A DNA stretch of 22,553 nucleotides from a virus, in the IMG/VR virus record IMGVR_UViG_3300046010_004870, positions 1 to 22,553 of that record. One strand, 5' to 3'. The position numbers and the translations under genes are program-made. Positions 989 through 7,733 of the stretch are shown here, piece after piece (positions within the stretch are counted from its first letter, which is position 1; every line of letters begins with the position of its first letter). Below the pieces are notes generated by a model that was not told where the DNA came from, searched no databases, and saw only the letters and a list, made by a program, of their open reading frames with translations.

Positions 989-2173
989 TCAGTCCCACCG
1001 CTGCAACCGGAGCGTGCAGTCCTGGGCCTGCGACCGATAGCCGCTGACCGTCATGGTGCGGAAGATGTCGCTGCCCGGACCCTGCACCGGCACCGACAGA
1101 TCGGTGATCTTGGCCTGCGGAATGGCGAACGACCATCCGCGGCTGTTCGCGTCCGTCGCGACCAACCACAGGTCGGTCGCCGTGTTGCCAAGGAACGTCG
1201 TCTGGTCGTCCTGGGTGTCGAAGTAGGCCGACAGGTTGGCCGAGGCCGTGAACAAGCCGCGCGGCATGCCGACCGGGCCGAGCGCGGCAAGCTGCTCGCG
1301 CGGGCGGATGTTGTTGCTGATTGCCAGCGCCACCGACTGCGCAGGCACGTCCTGGCCGACGCCGCTGGCGTTCGACAACTGCACCTCCTGCACGCCGATC
1401 GGGTCGAGCGTCGGCGCGAAGGTCGGGGCAGCGTAGGTCGCGCCGGCGATGAAAACGTCCGTCGTGCCCGTGTTGCCAGTGACGATGCTGTCCTTGGCCT
1501 CGCACTGGAACGAGATGGTGGCGAGCTGGTTGACGGCGAGGTTGATCGACGCCGAGTTGAACACGACGCCCCGGTAGATGTGCGCCCGCTGGAGGTCCAG
1601 GTGCGCGACCTCGACGGTGAAGCTCTGCTCGCTCAGGGCGTTGGTCGCCCGCACGCCGCGCGTCACGGTCACGTTGCTGGGCGAGCCGGTGAAGTTGGCG
1701 ACGCGGTCGACGGTCAGCGAGGTCGTGCCGACGGTGGTCACGCGCAGGTAGCCCATGTCGGCGGCGAGTCCGCCTGACAGCCGGATGATGTCGCCGACGG
1801 CGATGCCGTCGCCGGAGAAGCTGCCCGAGCCACGGGTTACGGTCTTTGCACCCGTGGTCGTCGTGCAGCTCGGAACCGACACCGTCGCCGTCACGAGCGA
1901 GTTGCTCATCAGCGCGAACATGGCCGCGCTCAGGCCCTCGCCGCTGGGCGAGTGCCGCAGCTCGCACGTCAGCGACCCCGTCGCACCGCGGCCGACACGG
2001 ACCATGTCCTCGATGTTGCGGGTCTGGTTGATGACGTTGGACGGCGACTGCGGCACGCGGTCGGCCATTGCGTGAGCCGTCACCGGCAGCCGAAGCATCG
2101 CAGGAGTGGCGGGAGTCGTGCCGAAGGTGCCCTCGGCAACGATGGAGACGCGAGTACGGAAGCCGTCGGCCAT
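989..2173 (-). CDS. Major tail tube protein
   Basis: A 394-aa protein that polymerises into the tail tube. The N-terminus (ADGFRTRVSIVAEGTFGTTP, then RLPVTAHAM) and SLTCELRHSPSGEGL look like the phage tail tube family often annotated Phage_tail_tube. It is rich in short beta strands (Thr/Val/Ser). Residues around 115-185 (SFSGDGIAVGDIIRLSGG and following) look like an inserted beta domain, which would explain the large size. I chose ATG at 2173; an in-frame TTG at 2179 would overlap the preceding TGA. It lies between the tail terminator and the chaperone pair, the expected order. Confidence 0.85.
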   Translation of the reverse strand: MADGFRTRVSIVAEGTFGTTPATPAMLRLPVTAHAMADRVPQSPSNVINQTRNIEDMVRVGRGATGSLTCELRHSPSGEGLSAAMFALMSNSLVTATVSVPSCTTTTGAKTVTRGSGSFSGDGIAVGDIIRLSGGLAADMGYLRVTTVGTTSLTVDRVANFTGSPSNVTVTRGVRATNALSEQSFTVEVAHLDLQRAHIYRGVVFNSASINLAVNQLATISFQCEAKDSIVTGNTGTTDVFIAGATYAAPTFAPTLDPIGVQEVQLSNASGVGQDVPAQSVALAISNNIRPREQLAALGPVGMPRGLFTASANLSAYFDTQDDQTTFLGNTATDLWLVATDANSRGWSFAIPQAKITDLSVPVQGPGSDIFRTMTVSGYRSQAQDCTLRLQRWD

Positions 2174-2175
2174 GG

Positions 2176-2589
2176 TCAAATCGTGTAGTCAGCCTGGAAA
2201 GGAACGCGCACCACGCGCGTCACAGTGGCCGCCTCAATGTCCAGCGCACCGGACACCGTAGGCGGTGGGAAGAAGCGGATGAGGAACGGCGAGGACAGCT
2301 CGACGCCTCGGAAGGCACCGACCACCGTCTCGGCCAGCGTCAGCACGGCGGCGTCGCCACGCTCGCGCGGCTGCTGCAGGCGTACCTCCATCTCGCCGAC
2401 CGTGCGCCAGCGGCGCGGGCGCCCGAGCGTGAGCTGCCGCTCCTCGCGCACCGTGACCGTCACGCGCGCCACAGGCTGGTCGCCGGCAAGGGCCGGGCCG
2501 TTGTCGTAGACGGTGTCGATGCCGCCCGGCGTGGCCACCTGGGCCATGTAGCGGCCTCGCACGGCCTCGATGGTCTGGGCCTGACTCAT
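2176..2589 (-). CDS. Tail terminator-like protein (DUF4128-type)
   Basis: A 137-aa protein beginning MSQAQTIEAVRGRYMAQVAT. The pattern VARVTVTVREERQLTLG, then RRWRTVGEMEVRLQQP, then helix and FRGVELSSPFLIRFFPPP, ending VPFQADYTI, fits the alpha/beta fold of tail terminators, which cap the tail and join it to the head. It lies between the HK97-gp10-like protein and the tail tube gene, as in many siphophages. I chose ATG at 2589 because it overlaps the end of the upstream gene by four bases. A longer reading frame further upstream is arginine-rich out-of-frame sequence. Confidence 0.75.
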   Translation of the reverse strand: MSQAQTIEAVRGRYMAQVATPGGIDTVYDNGPALAGDQPVARVTVTVREERQLTLGRPRRWRTVGEMEVRLQQPRERGDAAVLTLAETVVGAFRGVELSSPFLIRFFPPPTVSGALDIEAATVTRVVRVPFQADYTI

Positions 2590-3077
2590 CGCAGGCCCCC
2601 GAAGACCTGGCGCAGGACGGCCAGCGTCGGGCCGACGACGCCGTTGGGTGCCTGACGGCTCCACGGCTTCTTGCCAGGGCCGCCGAACTCGATGACCTGG
2701 CCGTACGGCACAGGGCACGAGAACCACACCAGCGACGGCTGCATGAGCTGGCCGACGGTGGCCATCAGCTCCTGCACGACCTTGGTCCCGTTCGGGTCGA
2801 CGCCTGGCAGCTCGCCGCGCGCCGGCACGTTGAAGGACGCCTGCCAGTTGCGGCGCATGTGGCCGCCGAGGTAGCCGCGCCGGCGCAGGATCGGTAGGCC
2901 GCGAGCGCGCCGCCCTGCGTTCATTGCCCAGCCTTCTTCGTTGCCGACCGGCGTGTTGAGCACGAGCTGCCGGATGGCCTCGGCGCAGACGCGCTTCTGG
3001 AACTCGACCGGCTTGCGGCGCAGGTTCTCGTCGGCCCAGTCGTTGAGCCGCGCCACGAACTGCTGCGGGCTGCTCAC
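2586..3077 (-). CDS. HK97-gp10-like neck/tail completion protein
   Basis: A 163-aa protein starting with GTG in a GTGA overlap with the head closure gene. SSPQQFVARLNDWADENLRR and LNTPVGNEEGWAMNAGRRARG, then HMRRNWQASFN, match the layout of HK97-gp10-like proteins: an N-terminal helix, an LV..TPV(D)TG-type motif, and R.NW..S. A later stretch reads VPYGQVIEFGGPGKKPWSRQ, the family's usual Y...IE.G motif. Such proteins act at the head-tail interface or in tail completion. Sequence upstream of the GTG in the same frame is not protein-like. Confidence 0.8.
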   Translation of the reverse strand: MSSPQQFVARLNDWADENLRRKPVEFQKRVCAEAIRQLVLNTPVGNEEGWAMNAGRRARGLPILRRRGYLGGHMRRNWQASFNVPARGELPGVDPNGTKVVQELMATVGQLMQPSLVWFSCPVPYGQVIEFGGPGKKPWSRQAPNGVVGPTLAVLRQVFGGLR

Positions 3078-3451
3078 GCGATCACCTTCCCGCAGTCGCA
3101 GCGGTAGGCGGTCGTGACGCCCTCCACCTGGTACTCCTCGACCTCGATGATCTGGTACGGGTTCGAGGTGTCGAGGCCAACAACGATGCGGTCGCCCTTG
3201 TCCGGCACGACGGCGAGGCCCTGCGCCGGAAGGTAGAACGTGCCCGTGATGCTCTGGTCGATGCCCTGCGCGGCGTAGCGGTTGATGTCGCGCACCGGCC
3301 CCTCGGCAGTCCACGCCGTGGACGTGACCGTCTGCGTCACCGTGCCGTTGGCCGCGTAGCCCGTCGCCGTTCGCGTCTCCAAGGTGATGGCCTGGCCGAA
3401 CGTCGCCGCCAGCTCCGTCTCCAGCGCGAGGAACTCGTCGGCGAGCGTCAC
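3074..3451 (-). CDS. Head closure / head-tail joining protein
   Basis: A 125-aa, beta-rich protein (VTLADEFLALETELAATFGQ, then GPVRDINRYAAQGIDQSITG, VPDKGDRIVVGLDTSNPYQI, and a C-terminal YRCDCGKVIA). Position between the adaptor domain and the gp10-like gene, the size, and the late motif D.I.. followed by Y.I.EVE.. fit head closure proteins of the SPP1 gp16 / HK97 gp7 type, which stopper the filled capsid. I chose GTG at 3451 because it makes the GTGA overlap used throughout this phage. An in-frame ATG at 3463 would add four residues. Confidence 0.68.
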   Translation of the reverse strand: MTLADEFLALETELAATFGQAITLETRTATGYAANGTVTQTVTSTAWTAEGPVRDINRYAAQGIDQSITGTFYLPAQGLAVVPDKGDRIVVGLDTSNPYQIIEVEEYQVEGVTTAYRCDCGKVIA

Positions 3452-5712
3452 AGGTCCATCCATCCCCAGCTCGACGACCCGCTGATCAGGCCGGACGTGG
3501 CGAGCATTCGCTCTGCCTCAACGAGCTGCGTCTCGGCGGGCTTCGTGCCGGCGTAGGTCACGGACTTGGACGAGCCGGACGCCGAGGACAGCGACTCGGA
3601 CTTGATGTCGCCCGTCGTGCGCGTGGTCGGGTTGATCGTGACGCCCTGGACGTGCAGGGCCGCAAGCACCGCCGTCGCCTGCTGCACCCGCAGCGGCACC
3701 ACGTCGCTGGCGATCAGCTCGCCGGCGGCGTCGTAGGCGTAGTCGCGTGGCCAGTCCAGGGCCTGCGTCGTCGAGTAGCGGTAGCCCACCCAGCGACCGC
3801 CGTAGCGCAGGTCGAGCGCGCGGGTGGCCGCCATGAGTGCCGTCTCCTTCGTCGCGTTGGTCGCCGCAGTCCAGGCCGCCGGCGTGCCGTAGTTCGTCAG
3901 GTAGGCGTTGGCGAACGCGATCGTGCAGTAGCTCGTCGCCGTGCTCAGGCCACTGCCAGTCTCCGCAACCAGCCCCGGTGCGTCCCAGGTGAGGTTGTAG
4001 GGAAACTGGTTGACCGTGACGAACTCGTCGAAGTTGTCGGCGTCGACCTGCGTGCCGCCGATCACCAGATCGCGGAACGTCAAGTCGTGCGGCGTGCTGA
4101 TCGAGTCACGGCCCAGGATCAGCGACACCTGTTCCGGCACCGCCTCGGTCTGCACGTCATCGAACACAACGTCGAAGATCTGGCCTGCGGCGTCCTGCGG
4201 CGTTACTCCGAGGAACGGGTACTGCACGTTCTGGAGGCAGAACAGGCGCGAGTACATGCGGCCCCAGACACGCAGGCCCGTGACGCTGATGTTGTAGTAG
4301 CCGTCGTTCGCTTGCGCGTTCGGCTTGTCGACGAACCCAGAGACGATGCACTGGATGCCTCGGTTCGGATAGACGAGCGGGCCGTTGGTGTCAGCATCTG
4401 CGTCGCCGAGGTTCATCGCATCGCAGTCGACGATGCTCGCACCGCTGGAGTCGTTGACCGTGTTGCCGAAGTAGCCGATCTTGAAGCAGTTCGCGCGAGC
4501 CGCGACGATGAACGTGTTCTGGATCGTGATTCGGTGCGTCGGCCAGAACAGCTTGACTCCGTCATCCGCGCAGTAGCTGAAGCTGTCGCAGACCAAGCCA
4601 GCGTTGTCAGACAGGCTCTTGCGCCCAGGCTGGAACCCGTCCGAGTTGTACGTCCACGGGTTCAACCACTGCACGTTGCGCAGGTAGTGCGCGCCGCCGT
4701 ACTGCAAGTAGAACGGCCACCGCACAAACGTCGGGCCGATGACGCGGCAGTTGACGGGCGAGGTGTTGACCGTGTCCGTGGCGATCGGGCAGTAACGGAC
4801 CTGATTGGCGAACGCCAGCACCTGCTCTGCGTTCGCGCGCTGGGCGAGGCTGGTGAACACGCCGTGCCCTTGGATCGTGACGCCGGCCGTGTTTGCGCTG
4901 GTCAGCGTGCTGAGGTCGAAGCCCGCGCGCCTTGCCGACAGGATCGTGAACGTCGAGCCTGCCGTCGGGTTGGTCGTCCAGTTCGGCGTGACGTTGAGCG
5001 TGTTGGCCGTGCTGGTCGTGATCGTGCGGACCTGACCAACGCCCGTGCCACCCGAGATGCGCACCTCAAGGGTGTTGTACGCGCCTACCACCCACGGGGT
5101 GCCGCTGACGGTGATGGAGCTGGCCGTCGCGCTGGCAGCGGTGCCCGTCACGTCAGGGTCGGTAAAGATGACGACTGCCCCGCCCTGCGCCGTCACCGTG
5201 CAGTTGTCGCCCAGCACTAGGCCAGGAGTGACCGCGTGGACGCCCGGAGGGAAGTGCAGCGCCGCACCAGCGGCAACGCTGGTCTGCCCGGCGTAGGCCA
5301 CGCTGCCCTGGGGAAGCTCTGGCTGCGGCAAGCTGACGAAGAGATTCAGCGGGCTGCGCCGGTCGCCGTTGACCTCGATGCGCAGCCGCCGGTTGCTCGG
5401 CACCACCACGCGTAGCTGCCCGTCCACGATGGTCTGCGTGACCCCGACATCGGCCGGGTAGACCTTGGCGCTGAAGATCGGGCCGTCGATCAGGTTGATG
5501 CGCACGTCGGCCGGCTCGTCGGCCCCGATCGTGATCCAGTCGCACTGGACTTCCTGACCGATGTCCCAGACCTCGTTCTCGCCCTGCGCCGTGAACGATT
5601 GCCCGTAGACGAAGCCGCTCGTCTGCGCTCCTGACACAGCCGCAGCCGTGACCAGGTACTTCTGGCTGCGCAAGCTGTCGAGGCCGGGGCTGGCGTAGAT
5701 GGTGACGGTCAT
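3448..5712 (-). CDS. Dextranase-like beta-helix hydrolase fused to head-tail adaptor
   Basis: One uninterrupted 754-aa frame holds two proteins. Residues about 1-140 form a beta-sandwich-like segment, and about 140-575 a right-handed beta-helix of the pectin-lyase fold. YNSDGF (D358) and CADDGVKLF (D383, D384) resemble the catalytic Asp plus Asp pair of clan GH-N (GH28 polygalacturonase, GH49 dextranase). The sandwich-plus-helix order is closest to GH49. From about residue 581, LVAETGSGLSTATSYCTIAF to the C-terminus is a complete head-tail adaptor of the kind annotated DnaT-like (A..YL...G..AAW, RALDLRYGGRW, ALDWPR). No in-frame ATG, GTG or TTG lies near the adaptor start; the closest is a GTG at 4065, about 30 residues upstream. 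The adaptor therefore appears to be made as a fusion. The gene occupies the normal adaptor slot. Confidence 0.8.
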   Translation of the reverse strand: MTVTIYASPGLDSLRSQKYLVTAAAVSGAQTSGFVYGQSFTAQGENEVWDIGQEVQCDWITIGADEPADVRINLIDGPIFSAKVYPADVGVTQTIVDGQLRVVVPSNRRLRIEVNGDRRSPLNLFVSLPQPELPQGSVAYAGQTSVAAGAALHFPPGVHAVTPGLVLGDNCTVTAQGGAVVIFTDPDVTGTAASATASSITVSGTPWVVGAYNTLEVRISGGTGVGQVRTITTSTANTLNVTPNWTTNPTAGSTFTILSARRAGFDLSTLTSANTAGVTIQGHGVFTSLAQRANAEQVLAFANQVRYCPIATDTVNTSPVNCRVIGPTFVRWPFYLQYGGAHYLRNVQWLNPWTYNSDGFQPGRKSLSDNAGLVCDSFSYCADDGVKLFWPTHRITIQNTFIVAARANCFKIGYFGNTVNDSSGASIVDCDAMNLGDADADTNGPLVYPNRGIQCIVSGFVDKPNAQANDGYYNISVTGLRVWGRMYSRLFCLQNVQYPFLGVTPQDAAGQIFDVVFDDVQTEAVPEQVSLILGRDSISTPHDLTFRDLVIGGTQVDADNFDEFVTVNQFPYNLTWDAPGLVAETGSGLSTATSYCTIAFANAYLTNYGTPAAWTAATNATKETALMAATRALDLRYGGRWVGYRYSTTQALDWPRDYAYDAAGELIASDVVPLRVQQATAVLAALHVQGVTINPTTRTTGDIKSESLSSASGSSKSVTYAGTKPAETQLVEAERMLATSGLISGSSSWGWMDL

Positions 5713-5743
5713 GGCGACGGCAGAGCTGCTGGGGTGAGTGTGT

Positions 5744-5780
5744 GACCCTGCCGCACGCCCCTAGGACGCGCAGCAGGGTC
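5744..5780 (-). promoter_or_regulatory. 14-bp hairpin between cement and hydrolase-adaptor genes
   Basis: Arms 5744-5757 and 5767-5780 pair over 14 positions (two of them G-U) around a nine-base loop. On the minus strand the sequence is GACCCTGCTGCGCG, loop, CGTGCGGCAGGGTC. No T-tract follows on either strand, so it is not a canonical intrinsic terminator. It could attenuate read-through from the abundant capsid/cement transcript or protect its 3' end. It fills most of the 77-base gap. Confidence 0.7.
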
Positions 5781-5789
5781 GGGCGCCGA

Positions 5790-6287
5790 TCAGATCGGGG
5801 CGATCCACGCGCCGACGAGCTGCAGGTTCGCCGTGCCGCCGGAGTAGGTCGCAATGACCTGCAGACGGATGAACCGCTTGGTGCTCTGCGTCGGGCCTGC
5901 GCTGCCGACGCTCACGTTGTCCACAAAGAACACCTCACGCCCGTTCGCCGGCGTGGCGAACTCGTTGCCGGTCTGCGCGGCCGACCCCAGGATCAGCACG
6001 CCGAGGCGCGTTGCGCCAGTCGTGAACGCCGCGTCGTCTGCGCCCTGGATGATGACCTGGTAGCTGCCGGTGATAGTCGTGTCGATCCCGTTCCAGTCGA
6101 CCACGACGGCGAACCGCGCGTAGGGCGCGGTCGACGACGTGTTGACGTTGAACGCCGGGGCCACTTGGCCCAAGTCGATGCTGCTGACGGTGCCGTTCGT
6201 GGCGGTGCCGGTCGCAGCTGTGTGCGACAGCGCTGCCGTGAGTCGGCTACCCTCTTCGAGGGCGAAGTTGTGGCATTGGTGTGCCAT
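5790..6287 (-). CDS. Capsid cement/decoration protein, copy 2 (Bbp16-like)
   Basis: A 165-aa protein starting MAHQCHNFALEEGSRLTAAL. It shares the opening MAHQ.N/H, a Leu-Thr/Lys-Ala-Ala motif, a DLG..APAFNV-type segment, and a Y.VIIQGAD..AF motif with the neighbouring 150-aa protein, so the two are paralogues. The length, jelly-roll-like strand pattern and position just after the capsid gene fit the Bbp16-type cement family of Bordetella phage BPP-1, which stabilises the capsid surface. It ends RLQVIATYSGGTANLQLVGA, a typical strand pair. Only three bases separate it from copy 1, and it lacks a clear Shine-Dalgarno, so coupling is likely. Confidence 0.72.
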   Translation of the reverse strand: MAHQCHNFALEEGSRLTAALSHTAATGTATNGTVSSIDLGQVAPAFNVNTSSTAPYARFAVVVDWNGIDTTITGSYQVIIQGADDAAFTTGATRLGVLILGSAAQTGNEFATPANGREVFFVDNVSVGSAGPTQSTKRFIRLQVIATYSGGTANLQLVGAWIAPI

Positions 6288-6290
6288 GCG

Positions 6291-6743
6291 TCACATCTGC
6301 GGCTTGGTCAGCCACGCCTCGTAGTTCATGCCCGAAGCGACCGTGCCCGCCACGACCGTGCGAATGCGAGCGTAGCGCAGCGGGCCGACGGTGTTGCCGT
6401 CCGTCGCGCTGGTGATCGCCACGTTGCTGCCGCTCAGGACGAGCAGGCCCGACGGCGGGGTGTCCGTCGCGTCGCCGTTGACCGTGCTGTCGCCGAAGCT
6501 GGTCTTCACCAGCTCGTAGACGCCCGACCCGAACGACGAGCTGTTGCTTCCCTGGACGATGATGTCGTAGCGCTCGTCGCCCGTAGCGACTTCGCAGGCC
6601 GTCCACGCGATGACCACGTCGAAGGCCGCGAAGCCCGGACCGAGGTCCACGATGTCGCTGCCGTCCGCAGTGGAGCCGACCAAGCCAGCGGCCTTGAGCC
6701 GGCCGTTGGCGTCGATGAGGTGGTTGAAGTTCTGGTGTGCCAT
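6291..6743 (-). CDS. Capsid cement/decoration protein, copy 1 (Bbp16-like)
   Basis: A 150-aa protein (MAHQNFNHLIDANGRLKAAG; then DLGPGFAAFDVVIAWTACE; YDIIVQGSNSSSFGSG; PLRYARIRTVVAG). It follows the major capsid gene by 18 bases. A near-perfect Shine-Dalgarno, AAGGAGG at 6752-6758, sits eight bases upstream of the ATG and overlaps the region just after the capsid stop. The strong site suggests high expression, as expected for a stoichiometric capsid cement. The beta-sandwich pattern and place match Bbp16-type proteins; the family call is by resemblance. Confidence 0.75.
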   Translation of the reverse strand: MAHQNFNHLIDANGRLKAAGLVGSTADGSDIVDLGPGFAAFDVVIAWTACEVATGDERYDIIVQGSNSSSFGSGVYELVKTSFGDSTVNGDATDTPPSGLLVLSGSNVAITSATDGNTVGPLRYARIRTVVAGTVASGMNYEAWLTKPQM

Positions 6744-6761
6744 GTGGTGATCCTCCTTGGA

Positions 6762-7733
6762 TCAGGCGACGGCCGTGAGATCGGCGATGGTGTGGAGACG
6801 CGCCACGCAGCGCGGGTGAATGTCGATGACGTTGCAGTACCACTCGACGCGGGTGCGGAAGACCGGCTTGCTGTTCTGCTCGCCGAGGTCGCGCACGTCG
6901 ATGCCGCCGTTCTGGATCATCTGCAGACCCATGTCCGAGCAGGACATCACGTAGATCGACGTGCGGTTGCTGCTCGCGCCCTCGTTGTAGCCGAGCTGCT
7001 GCAGGCTGGCCGCGGTGCCCAGAACGTCGGCCTCGATGATCGGCAGACCCGCGTAGGTCGTCACCAAGCGGCCGAACTCGTCGCGCGAAGTGGCCAACGA
7101 CGCCGAGTTGCGCATGAAGGCCACGATGTTCACCTTCTGCTTCTTGGGCATCAGGATGTGCGTCGGGTTGTCGACCGCCTGAATGGCGGAGTCCAGGTCC
7201 TTCATCGACAGCGCATCACTGGCGCCCGTGTTGGCGATGATCTGGTCGGCGTTCTCGCCGGCGTCCTGAATGGCGTTGCCGCCGAAGCCGCCGCCGTAGC
7301 GGACCTGCAGGCCGTCGAAGCCGTTGATGTTGGCCGTCGCGCCGCCGGAAGCGGTCGTGCTGCCCTTGATGATCTGCTGCGCGATGGTCTGGCCGAGGAG
7401 CTTGGCCTTCAGGGTCTCGTGAGCCGACCGCACTTCCGGGCCGTGCGTCTGGACGAGGTAGCGGTCGACATCGAGGTCGCCGCCGATGATCTTCAGCGGG
7501 ACCGAGCGCGTTTCGACCGTGCCAGCGGCCTCGGTGTACTGGCCGTTGACGGCCCGGAACTCGACGCTGCCCATGTTGGCCTCGCGCGTCCACGCGAAGC
7601 TGTTGCCCTGCACGTTGGTCATGACCATCGCGCCGAGGAGCGGAACCTCCGCGAACGTCTGGAGGATGCCCGCCTTCTTGAACTCGCCGTTGTTCTGCGC
7701 GATCAGCGCAGACTGATAGAGACTGACTGCCAT
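6762..7733 (-). CDS. Major capsid protein (HK97 fold)
   Basis: A 323-aa protein with no visible N-terminal prohead delta domain, consistent with the separate scaffold gene just upstream. Features include MAVSLYQSALIAQNNGEFKK, FRAVNGQYTEAAGTVETRSV, GGDLDVDRYLVQTHGPEVRS (the capsid family's typical D.D.Y mid-region), THILMPKKQKVNIVAFMRNS, and a C-terminal VRDLGEQNSKPVFRTRVEWY. These match HK97-fold capsid proteins found beside DUF4055 portals. The start codon lies one base from a large hairpin and has no Shine-Dalgarno, which is odd for the most abundant virion protein. Confidence 0.9.
   Translation of the reverse strand: MAVSLYQSALIAQNNGEFKKAGILQTFAEVPLLGAMVMTNVQGNSFAWTREANMGSVEFRAVNGQYTEAAGTVETRSVPLKIIGGDLDVDRYLVQTHGPEVRSAHETLKAKLLGQTIAQQIIKGSTTASGGATANINGFDGLQVRYGGGFGGNAIQDAGENADQIIANTGASDALSMKDLDSAIQAVDNPTHILMPKKQKVNIVAFMRNSASLATSRDEFGRLVTTYAGLPIIEADVLGTAASLQQLGYNEGASSNRTSIYVMSCSDMGLQMIQNGGIDVRDLGEQNSKPVFRTRVEWYCNVIDIHPRCVARLHTIADLTAVA

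Follow-up and report, generated by a model that had tools for sequence, protein, structure and literature searches.

A GH49-like domain fused to a phage head-tail adaptor, a probable glycosidase of the neck

Virus record IMGVR_UViG_3300046010_004870, whose 22,553 bases were analysed as one stretch and are here called the window, carries on its minus strand a gene (3448..5712) in which a domain resembling the enzymes of glycoside hydrolase family 49 (GH49) is followed, in the same 754-residue protein, by a head-tail adaptor. We consider it probable that this domain is a mobile glycosidase of GH49-like type, which its fusion in front of the adaptor places on display around the virion's neck.

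The fused gene and the predicted fold of its N-terminal half

An earlier note, made from the letters alone, had claimed an uninterrupted frame of 754 codons in which a glycoside-hydrolase-type beta-helix precedes a complete adaptor domain from about residue 581, sitting in the adaptor slot, and these claims are borne out. The frame runs without interruption from the ATG at 5712 to a stop codon ending at 3448. Its residues 581-747 match positions 9-171 of the 220 of phrog_477, 'head-tail adaptor Ad1' (E 3.2e-33), and residues 581-740 match Pfam PF20557 (E 2.3e-29); together with the stop codon the adaptor domain, residues 579-754, occupies 3448..3978 on the minus strand. The order of genes is scaffold, major head protein, two small genes, the fusion, head closure Hc1 (phrog_161) and Neck1 (phrog_169). 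Both by its profile match and by its slot between the head protein and Hc1/Neck1, the C-terminus is an Ad1. The order head protein, adaptor, head closure and neck gene is found as well in two of the four GenBank phage records opened from among 71 matching ones, and all four carry free-standing adaptors of 168-176 residues. Like other members of Ad1, the window's protein has the full domain and the gene order; unlike those four, it has 578 residues ahead of the adaptor. The junction falls at the position of the start codon in free-standing adaptor relatives.

PF20557 matches once each in the window record, in a 36.9-kb relative and in the metagenome-assembled genome (MAG) that holds a 33.9-kb contig, records that may be incomplete; on none of the three was a second adaptor gene found with this profile. 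Therefore, barring cleavage, the fused protein is the adaptor that these phages produce. The claim that the adaptor exists only as a fusion stands for the window record but not for the family, in which four sister contigs have it free. Internal starts near the adaptor are a TTG at residue 544 and a GTG at residue 550 (position 4065), the next ATG being at residue 627, within the adaptor domain. Separate translation of the adaptor from this GTG, which the earlier note had raised, is unsupported: residue 550 is Val in contig L022 but not in L007 and L017, and no ribosome-binding site is seen by eye before the codon in the window.

The N-terminal half matches no named family in the libraries searched. 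Its structure was predicted with AlphaFold2, from residues 1-578 alone and 15 aligned sequences, and the resulting model has a predicted template modelling score (pTM) of 0.76 and a mean predicted local distance difference test (pLDDT) of 67.7. An N-terminal immunoglobulin-like (Ig-like) beta-sandwich is predicted at residues ~1-134 (5311..5712, minus strand; pLDDT 81-93 for residues 61-130) and a right-handed beta-helix at residues ~135-578 (3979..5310, minus strand); the model is good for the sandwich (~61-130) and for most of the helix from ~321 to 578. In a Foldseek search of PDB the first seven rows, from four entries, are GH49 enzymes, namely isopullulanase (3wwg, 1wmr) and dextranases (1ogm, 6nzs), with E 8.4e-13 to 3.6e-9 and TM-scores of 0.46-0.58, and the rows after them are GH87 and GH28. 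Likewise, VIA aligns 424-433 residues with the GH49 entries (Z 25.9-28.5), over residues 6-578 and both domains, and 274 residues with a polygalacturonase (Z 22.8); phage proteins rank lower, phi29 gp12 at Z 19.5 and the HK620 tailspike at Z 19.4. The domain layout of GH49, a sandwich plus a helix, is described in a passage of PMC9691899, and the predicted model has this layout, with an N-terminal sandwich and a C-terminal right-handed beta-helix. No fold match was found in BFVD at E up to 0.001, and sequence searches gave no credible solved relatives of the adaptor, the fusion or the helix. An identity of the sandwich with LtfC, suggested by weak Pfam matches (best E 0.23, 3 of 15 members), was set aside, and a search for GH49 sequences with PF03718, which matched 0 of 392 planctomycete genomes, is uninformative, given that it matched 0 of 14 controls too.

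Within the helix lie the putative catalytic residues, at the positions that the earlier note had given. D358, in the motif NSDGF (4639..4641, minus strand), is the putative catalytic base, and D383/D384, in CADDGVK (4561..4566, minus strand), the putative acid and second base. They were read from an alignment of 15 sequences, drawn from the 25 contigs described below by leaving out near-copies and cut copies; D383 and D384 are invariant (15 of 15) and D358 is Asp in 13. The Asp...AspAsp motif, a candidate active site of clan GH-N type with a spacing of 25 residues from D358 to D383, is complete in those 13. According to passages of PMC7939477, the residues of PdGH110B are D321/D344/D345, an Asp and then an Asp pair 23 residues on, and this catalytic machinery is said to be common to GH28, GH49 and GH87. 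The relatives L064 and L066 have weak matches to Pfam GH49N (E 0.0079 and 0.029) that stay below the cut-off; against GH49N and GH49, L064 scores 16.3 and 13.8 bits where the cut-offs are 21.3 and 27. With the GH49 enzymes the domain shares the predicted N-terminal sandwich and the right-handed beta-helix, and its Asp...AspAsp is a putative counterpart of theirs; unlike them, it is joined to a phage connector and lies below the Pfam GH49 cut-offs. We call it, by its predicted structure, GH49-like and not GH49 proper, because its sequence is below those cut-offs and because a paper on a GH49 dextranase names partly different residues.

Recurrence and exchange of the domain

We find the domain on 25 contigs: the window itself, 22 viral contigs, and a pair that belong to a single Phycisphaerales MAG. 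They come from four scans of viral contigs, one scan of genome contigs, which was bounded by the peptide patterns used and yielded one locus, and a search of the MAG found by that last scan. Two contigs (L009, L032) end within the domain, and 23 have a readable C-terminus. In 22 of these 23 the C-terminus is that of a protein from the connector region. Five kinds can be told apart, three of them recognised by profile and two by gene order only. Thus, to the question of the earlier note whether the fusion recurs, the answer is that it does, with Ad1 and with other connector-region proteins.

The first kind is Ad1 itself, on 12 contigs that range from near-copies of the window through to L022, with 32-34% identity in the helix and 55-57% in the adaptor. 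In the second kind, on two contigs (L007/L028 and L008), a helix 82-83% identical to the window's is joined to a different, unclassified C-terminus; in L028 this fusion directly precedes a Neck1 gene of phrog_26. The third kind (L054, L063, L064, L065) has another unclassified C-terminus of 127-140 residues; in L063 it comes after a head protein of phrog_371, and two genes further on stands a gene resembling a tail terminator (phrog_4204, E 0.0045). Profiles built from shallow alignments gave no match of the L007 C-terminus to Ad1 or of the L054-type C-terminus to Hc1 or Ad1, the L028 C-terminus was matched to Mu gp36 (PF07030) in 0 of 4 records, and tblastn with the L007 and L054-type C-termini returned nothing useful. 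The fourth kind (L066, L083, L084) is phrog_394, 'tail protein'. The C-terminus of L066 matches phrog_394 at E 2.3e-40 and phrog_9239, 'tail tubular protein', at E 1.7e-10, and the next gene is phrog_376; L083, which ends ~30 residues past the junction, and L084 were assigned by eye from their visible residues. The fifth kind is represented by L077, whose C-terminus matches the Pfam family 'Tube' (PF17212, a tail tubular protein) at E 2.3e-36. In podoviruses, such tail tubular proteins serve as the adaptor bound to the portal. On L077 and L083 our home-made gene caller started internally and the open frame was used instead, taken from a TTG in L077 and from the first ATG in L083. By eye only, the gene preceding the L077 fusion looks head-type, and so do the small proteins of L084.

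A comparison of profiles between the window group and the group of the third and fourth kinds gives a probability of 100 and E 2.6e-57 over 509 columns, and therefore these groups form one domain family. Contigs L054 and L046 are C33 and C50 of the Phycisphaerales MAG, in which the domain thus sits on different neck proteins. This MAG is the sole genome hint on the host, and the presence of two phage-type contigs in it may be a binning accident.

In 50,697 GenBank phages, tblastn with the full protein matches the 71 records mentioned above, none over more than 80% of its length, and among the matches listed (best 40 of 71) all fall within residues 577-743. The window's helix gives a 51-residue match in phage Pam2 (E 7e-3) and four weaker ones, and L054 and L022 give none in the same phages. 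A profile of the helix matched 3 of 294 planctomycete genomes, two of them only in a module of ~70 residues; PF20557 matched 6 of 392, in frames of 146-367 residues in five and of 764 in genome G001. This ~70-residue module, residues 188-258 of the fusion (4939..5151, minus strand), recurs in other, longer proteins, and the Pam2 match lies within it. The module, which includes GQVRTITTSTANTLNVTPNWTTNPTAGSTF, recurs on two contigs of the MAG (G001:C50:29027 and G001:C33:10150) and in Pam2 (ON014754, 66525-66677), whereas the helices of the L054/L064/L066 group lack it.

Sister phages of the window lack the domain. A free adaptor of 176 residues is found on four sister contigs (L015, L016, L020, L021), 93% and 84% identical to the window's. 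L015, where the figure is 93%, has no helix and is 97-99% identical to the window in the portal (176 residues seen), head morphogenesis protein, scaffold, Neck1, the gene next to it and the major tail gene, with Hc1 at 94% and the head protein at 82%; the helix profile found nothing on the records of L015 and L020, both of them partial. L017 is 97-100% identical to the window from Hc1 onward, but only 54% in the helix and 85% in the adaptor. Variation among close relatives is greatest in the helix, in the head protein and in the pair of small genes that follows the latter. Compared with the window in blocks of 40 residues, the helix of L046 is 92-100% identical over residues 1-360 (one block 82%) and 72-80% over residues 361-560, and is thus an internal mosaic. 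The dN/dS of the helix part is 0.07-0.44 in 7 of 7 pairs. The domain acts as a mobile module: of phages that are nearly identical, some have it, some lack it and some have it replaced. We claim no number of gains: in a tree of 18 adaptors, four of them from GenBank, the fused rows need three label changes, of which well-supported branches force only one.

Neighbouring genes and sequence features

On the minus strand, the fusion is followed by the head closure gene Hc1 at 3074..3451 (phrog_161, E 6e-8, profile run on 3074-3463) and by the Neck1 or tail completion gene at 2586..3077 (phrog_169, E 5e-23, profile run on 2586-3314), and preceded by the major head protein gene at 6762..7733 (phrog_212, E 1.1e-49). 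Between head protein and fusion, at 5790..6743, lie two small minus-strand genes of 150 and 165 residues, decoration-like by position only, which differ among relatives. Across L015-L030 and L046 the head protein is 78-82% identical to the window's and the two small genes 34-68% and 37-95%, whereas most neck and tail genes vary far less. This variability of the head protein and the small genes (5790-7733) suggests exchange of exposed parts of the virion.

A hairpin of 17 pairs (5744..5780, minus strand; -35.4 kcal/mol, z -4.28) lies in the gap preceding the fusion gene. It is present upstream of the free adaptor gene of L015 as well, and L017 and L022 have hairpins before the gene, but with other sequence. 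Its place is after the capsid-type genes and ahead of the fusion, and it may reduce expression from capsid to neck genes. The earlier note had also pointed to a lower G+C content of the helix. Windows of 300 bases do fall to 61% near 4350-4650; the contrast between the whole helix part (65.2%) and the adaptor (70.3%) is smaller than claimed. A foreign origin of the helix by base composition is unsupported, because the G+C of the major head protein gene (65.4%) is no different.

Contig L045 (IMGVR_UViG_3300022562_000032, 38-1585) carries an Ad1 adaptor, 48% identical, behind a different N-terminal stretch of ~340 residues. That stretch has no Pfam match in a frame open at the contig end, and by eye it holds what we take to be SGNH-esterase-like motifs.

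A probable hydrolase at the neck and the alternatives to it

On the reading that we favour, the enzyme would reach the neck because it forms the front of the same chain as the adaptor, which takes its place beneath the portal. Adaptor rings usually have 12 copies. The ring would hold the enzymes outward, in 12 copies by this general rule and by the example of roseophage R4C, and they would cut a polysaccharide of the host surface or of the matrix, one that is perhaps alpha-glucan-like, near the head. The wide capsid would thus be able to follow the tail through capsule or slime; an alternative benefit would be the release of progeny from the matrix. We infer this neck location, copy number and activity for the GH49-like domain.

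Several observations weigh against a neck-mounted glycosidase. Residues 134-264 are poorly modelled, and the full-length model, built with 7 sequences, has a pLDDT of 43, leaving adaptor and helix without a joint model. The window's own sequence has no match to Pfam GH49N or GH49; across the 15 aligned members GH49N matches two (best E 0.0058) and GH49 one (E 0.042), and family profiles found no GH49 chain in PDB by sequence. One clade, that of L017 and L031, has Asn in place of D358. The key residues predicted for a GH49 dextranase, in the portion of PMC9691899 that deals with them, are Asp412, Asp431, Glu415 and Gln410, partly other ones, and therefore residue roles are not simply transferable. 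As to recurrence, the 25 contigs include many near-copies, which are not independent samples, and therefore the independent events are fewer than the contigs. The second and third kinds of C-terminus have no family match and were placed by gene order only; the L054 contig is without head genes, and the L064 stretch stops after the next gene. One of the 23 readable contigs, L078, carries the domain in an open frame of 1474 residues that is not recognisable as a connector. Counted from its ATG the protein has 1463 residues (1860-6251 of the 93-kb record IMGVR_UViG_3300035698_004821), and the locus has 45% G+C. Finally, the authors of the R4C structure ascribe its peripheral adaptor domain, in passages of PMC10276861, to stability and not to adsorption.

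The strongest of the alternatives, which we hold to be possible though rather unlikely, is a non-catalytic collar whose beta-helix binds host or environmental polysaccharide and does not cut it. The loss of D358 from L017 and L031 speaks for it, given that their helices are conserved all the same (dN/dS of 0.07 between them), and in this clade the domain may indeed bind instead of cutting. Neck modules of lactococcal phages offer a precedent: PMC6669499 reports carbohydrate-binding modules at the neck and host binding by a neck module of 936 phages. Set against a binding collar are the complete Asp motif in 13 of 15 members, D383/D384 in all 15, and best-matching folds that are hydrolases.

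That the domain braces the joint of neck and capsid, with no role in sugar binding or cutting, seems to us improbable. In the parts of PMC10276861 on the R4C adaptor, an N-terminal Ig-like domain lies outside the capsid on the periphery of a ring of 12 copies, contacts the capsid and is proposed to give local stability. The R4C adaptor resembles the window's in having an extra N-terminal domain at a 12-fold ring, and differs in that this domain has 106 residues, is Ig-like and has no enzyme fold. A bracing role is opposed by the absence of the domain from sister phages whose head and tail genes are for the most part 97-99% identical, and by the conservation of most putative active-site residues. 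An equally low standing must be given to a fusion that is cleaved, so that the enzyme is freed in assembly or lysis and the virion keeps a bare adaptor. A soluble enzyme at lysis would also aid spread; the join to several kinds of connector, however, suggests that the join itself is selected. A frameshift or chimeric assembly at the junction, named in the earlier note as what would overturn the fusion, might be entertained for the window as a single contig, but the helix-Ad1 junction stands on 12 contigs, of which a MAG contributes one, with analogous junctions to other connectors, and an artefact is therefore refuted for practical purposes.

We return to the neck-mounted glycosidase and compare it with known systems. 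Tailspikes have an N-terminal virion anchor and a C-terminal enzyme. Here the order is reversed, the enzyme part lying N-terminal of the virion anchor and within the neck gene cassette; tailspikes such as that of HK620 (Z 19.4) share the nature of a beta-helix glycan protein of the virion, and GH49 matches better. Phi29 gp12 is a separate appendage protein. It is, like the predicted domain, a beta-helix at the neck (3suc, Z 19.5), unlike it not fused to the adaptor, and a weaker match than GH49. Because passages of PMC10491603 describe gp12 as a pre-neck appendage of beta-helix type, equivalent to a collar, the view of the earlier note that the neck is an unusual place for such enzymes has to be tempered: beta-helices near the neck are already known, and the fusion to the adaptor is the difference. 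Lactococcal neck passage proteins undergo exchange with a pectin-lyase-like domain (passages of PMC10684548); they have a constant N-terminus and an exchanged C-terminus and are separate from the adaptor. In the window, the domain is not a neck protein distinct from the adaptor, the two sharing one open reading frame with a single PF20557 match. The tail tubular proteins A of KP32 and KP34, which are of T7 type, are reported in PMC5440376 and PMC5741709 to be active on saccharides; there the activity is reported for the tail tubular protein itself, whereas L077 has a hydrolase-type domain of its own in front of that protein. No fusion of a glycosidase domain to a head-tail adaptor was found in open-access titles and the starts of abstracts, a search that does not cover subscription papers.

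Virion depolymerases of polysaccharides are mostly regarded as tools of the tail tip or tailspike. We see about even chances that there is, beside them, a class of neck-mounted hydrolases, in which a mobile N-terminal module has been captured by unrelated head-tail connectors (siphoviral Ad1, tail tubular proteins of T7 type and phrog_394 type, and two unclassified connector-region proteins) and clears the glycan near the head without depending on the tail tip; the same mounting point would also be used by other enzymes, perhaps by the N-terminal domain of L045. The window and L015 form a natural pair, with and without the domain, which makes the question of its function directly testable. If the reading is true, a hydrolase built covalently into the ring of adaptors, and this in necks of several architectures, would point to selection for the clearing of glycan around the capsid, and the position ahead of the adaptor would be a natural route for mounting enzymes on phage particles.

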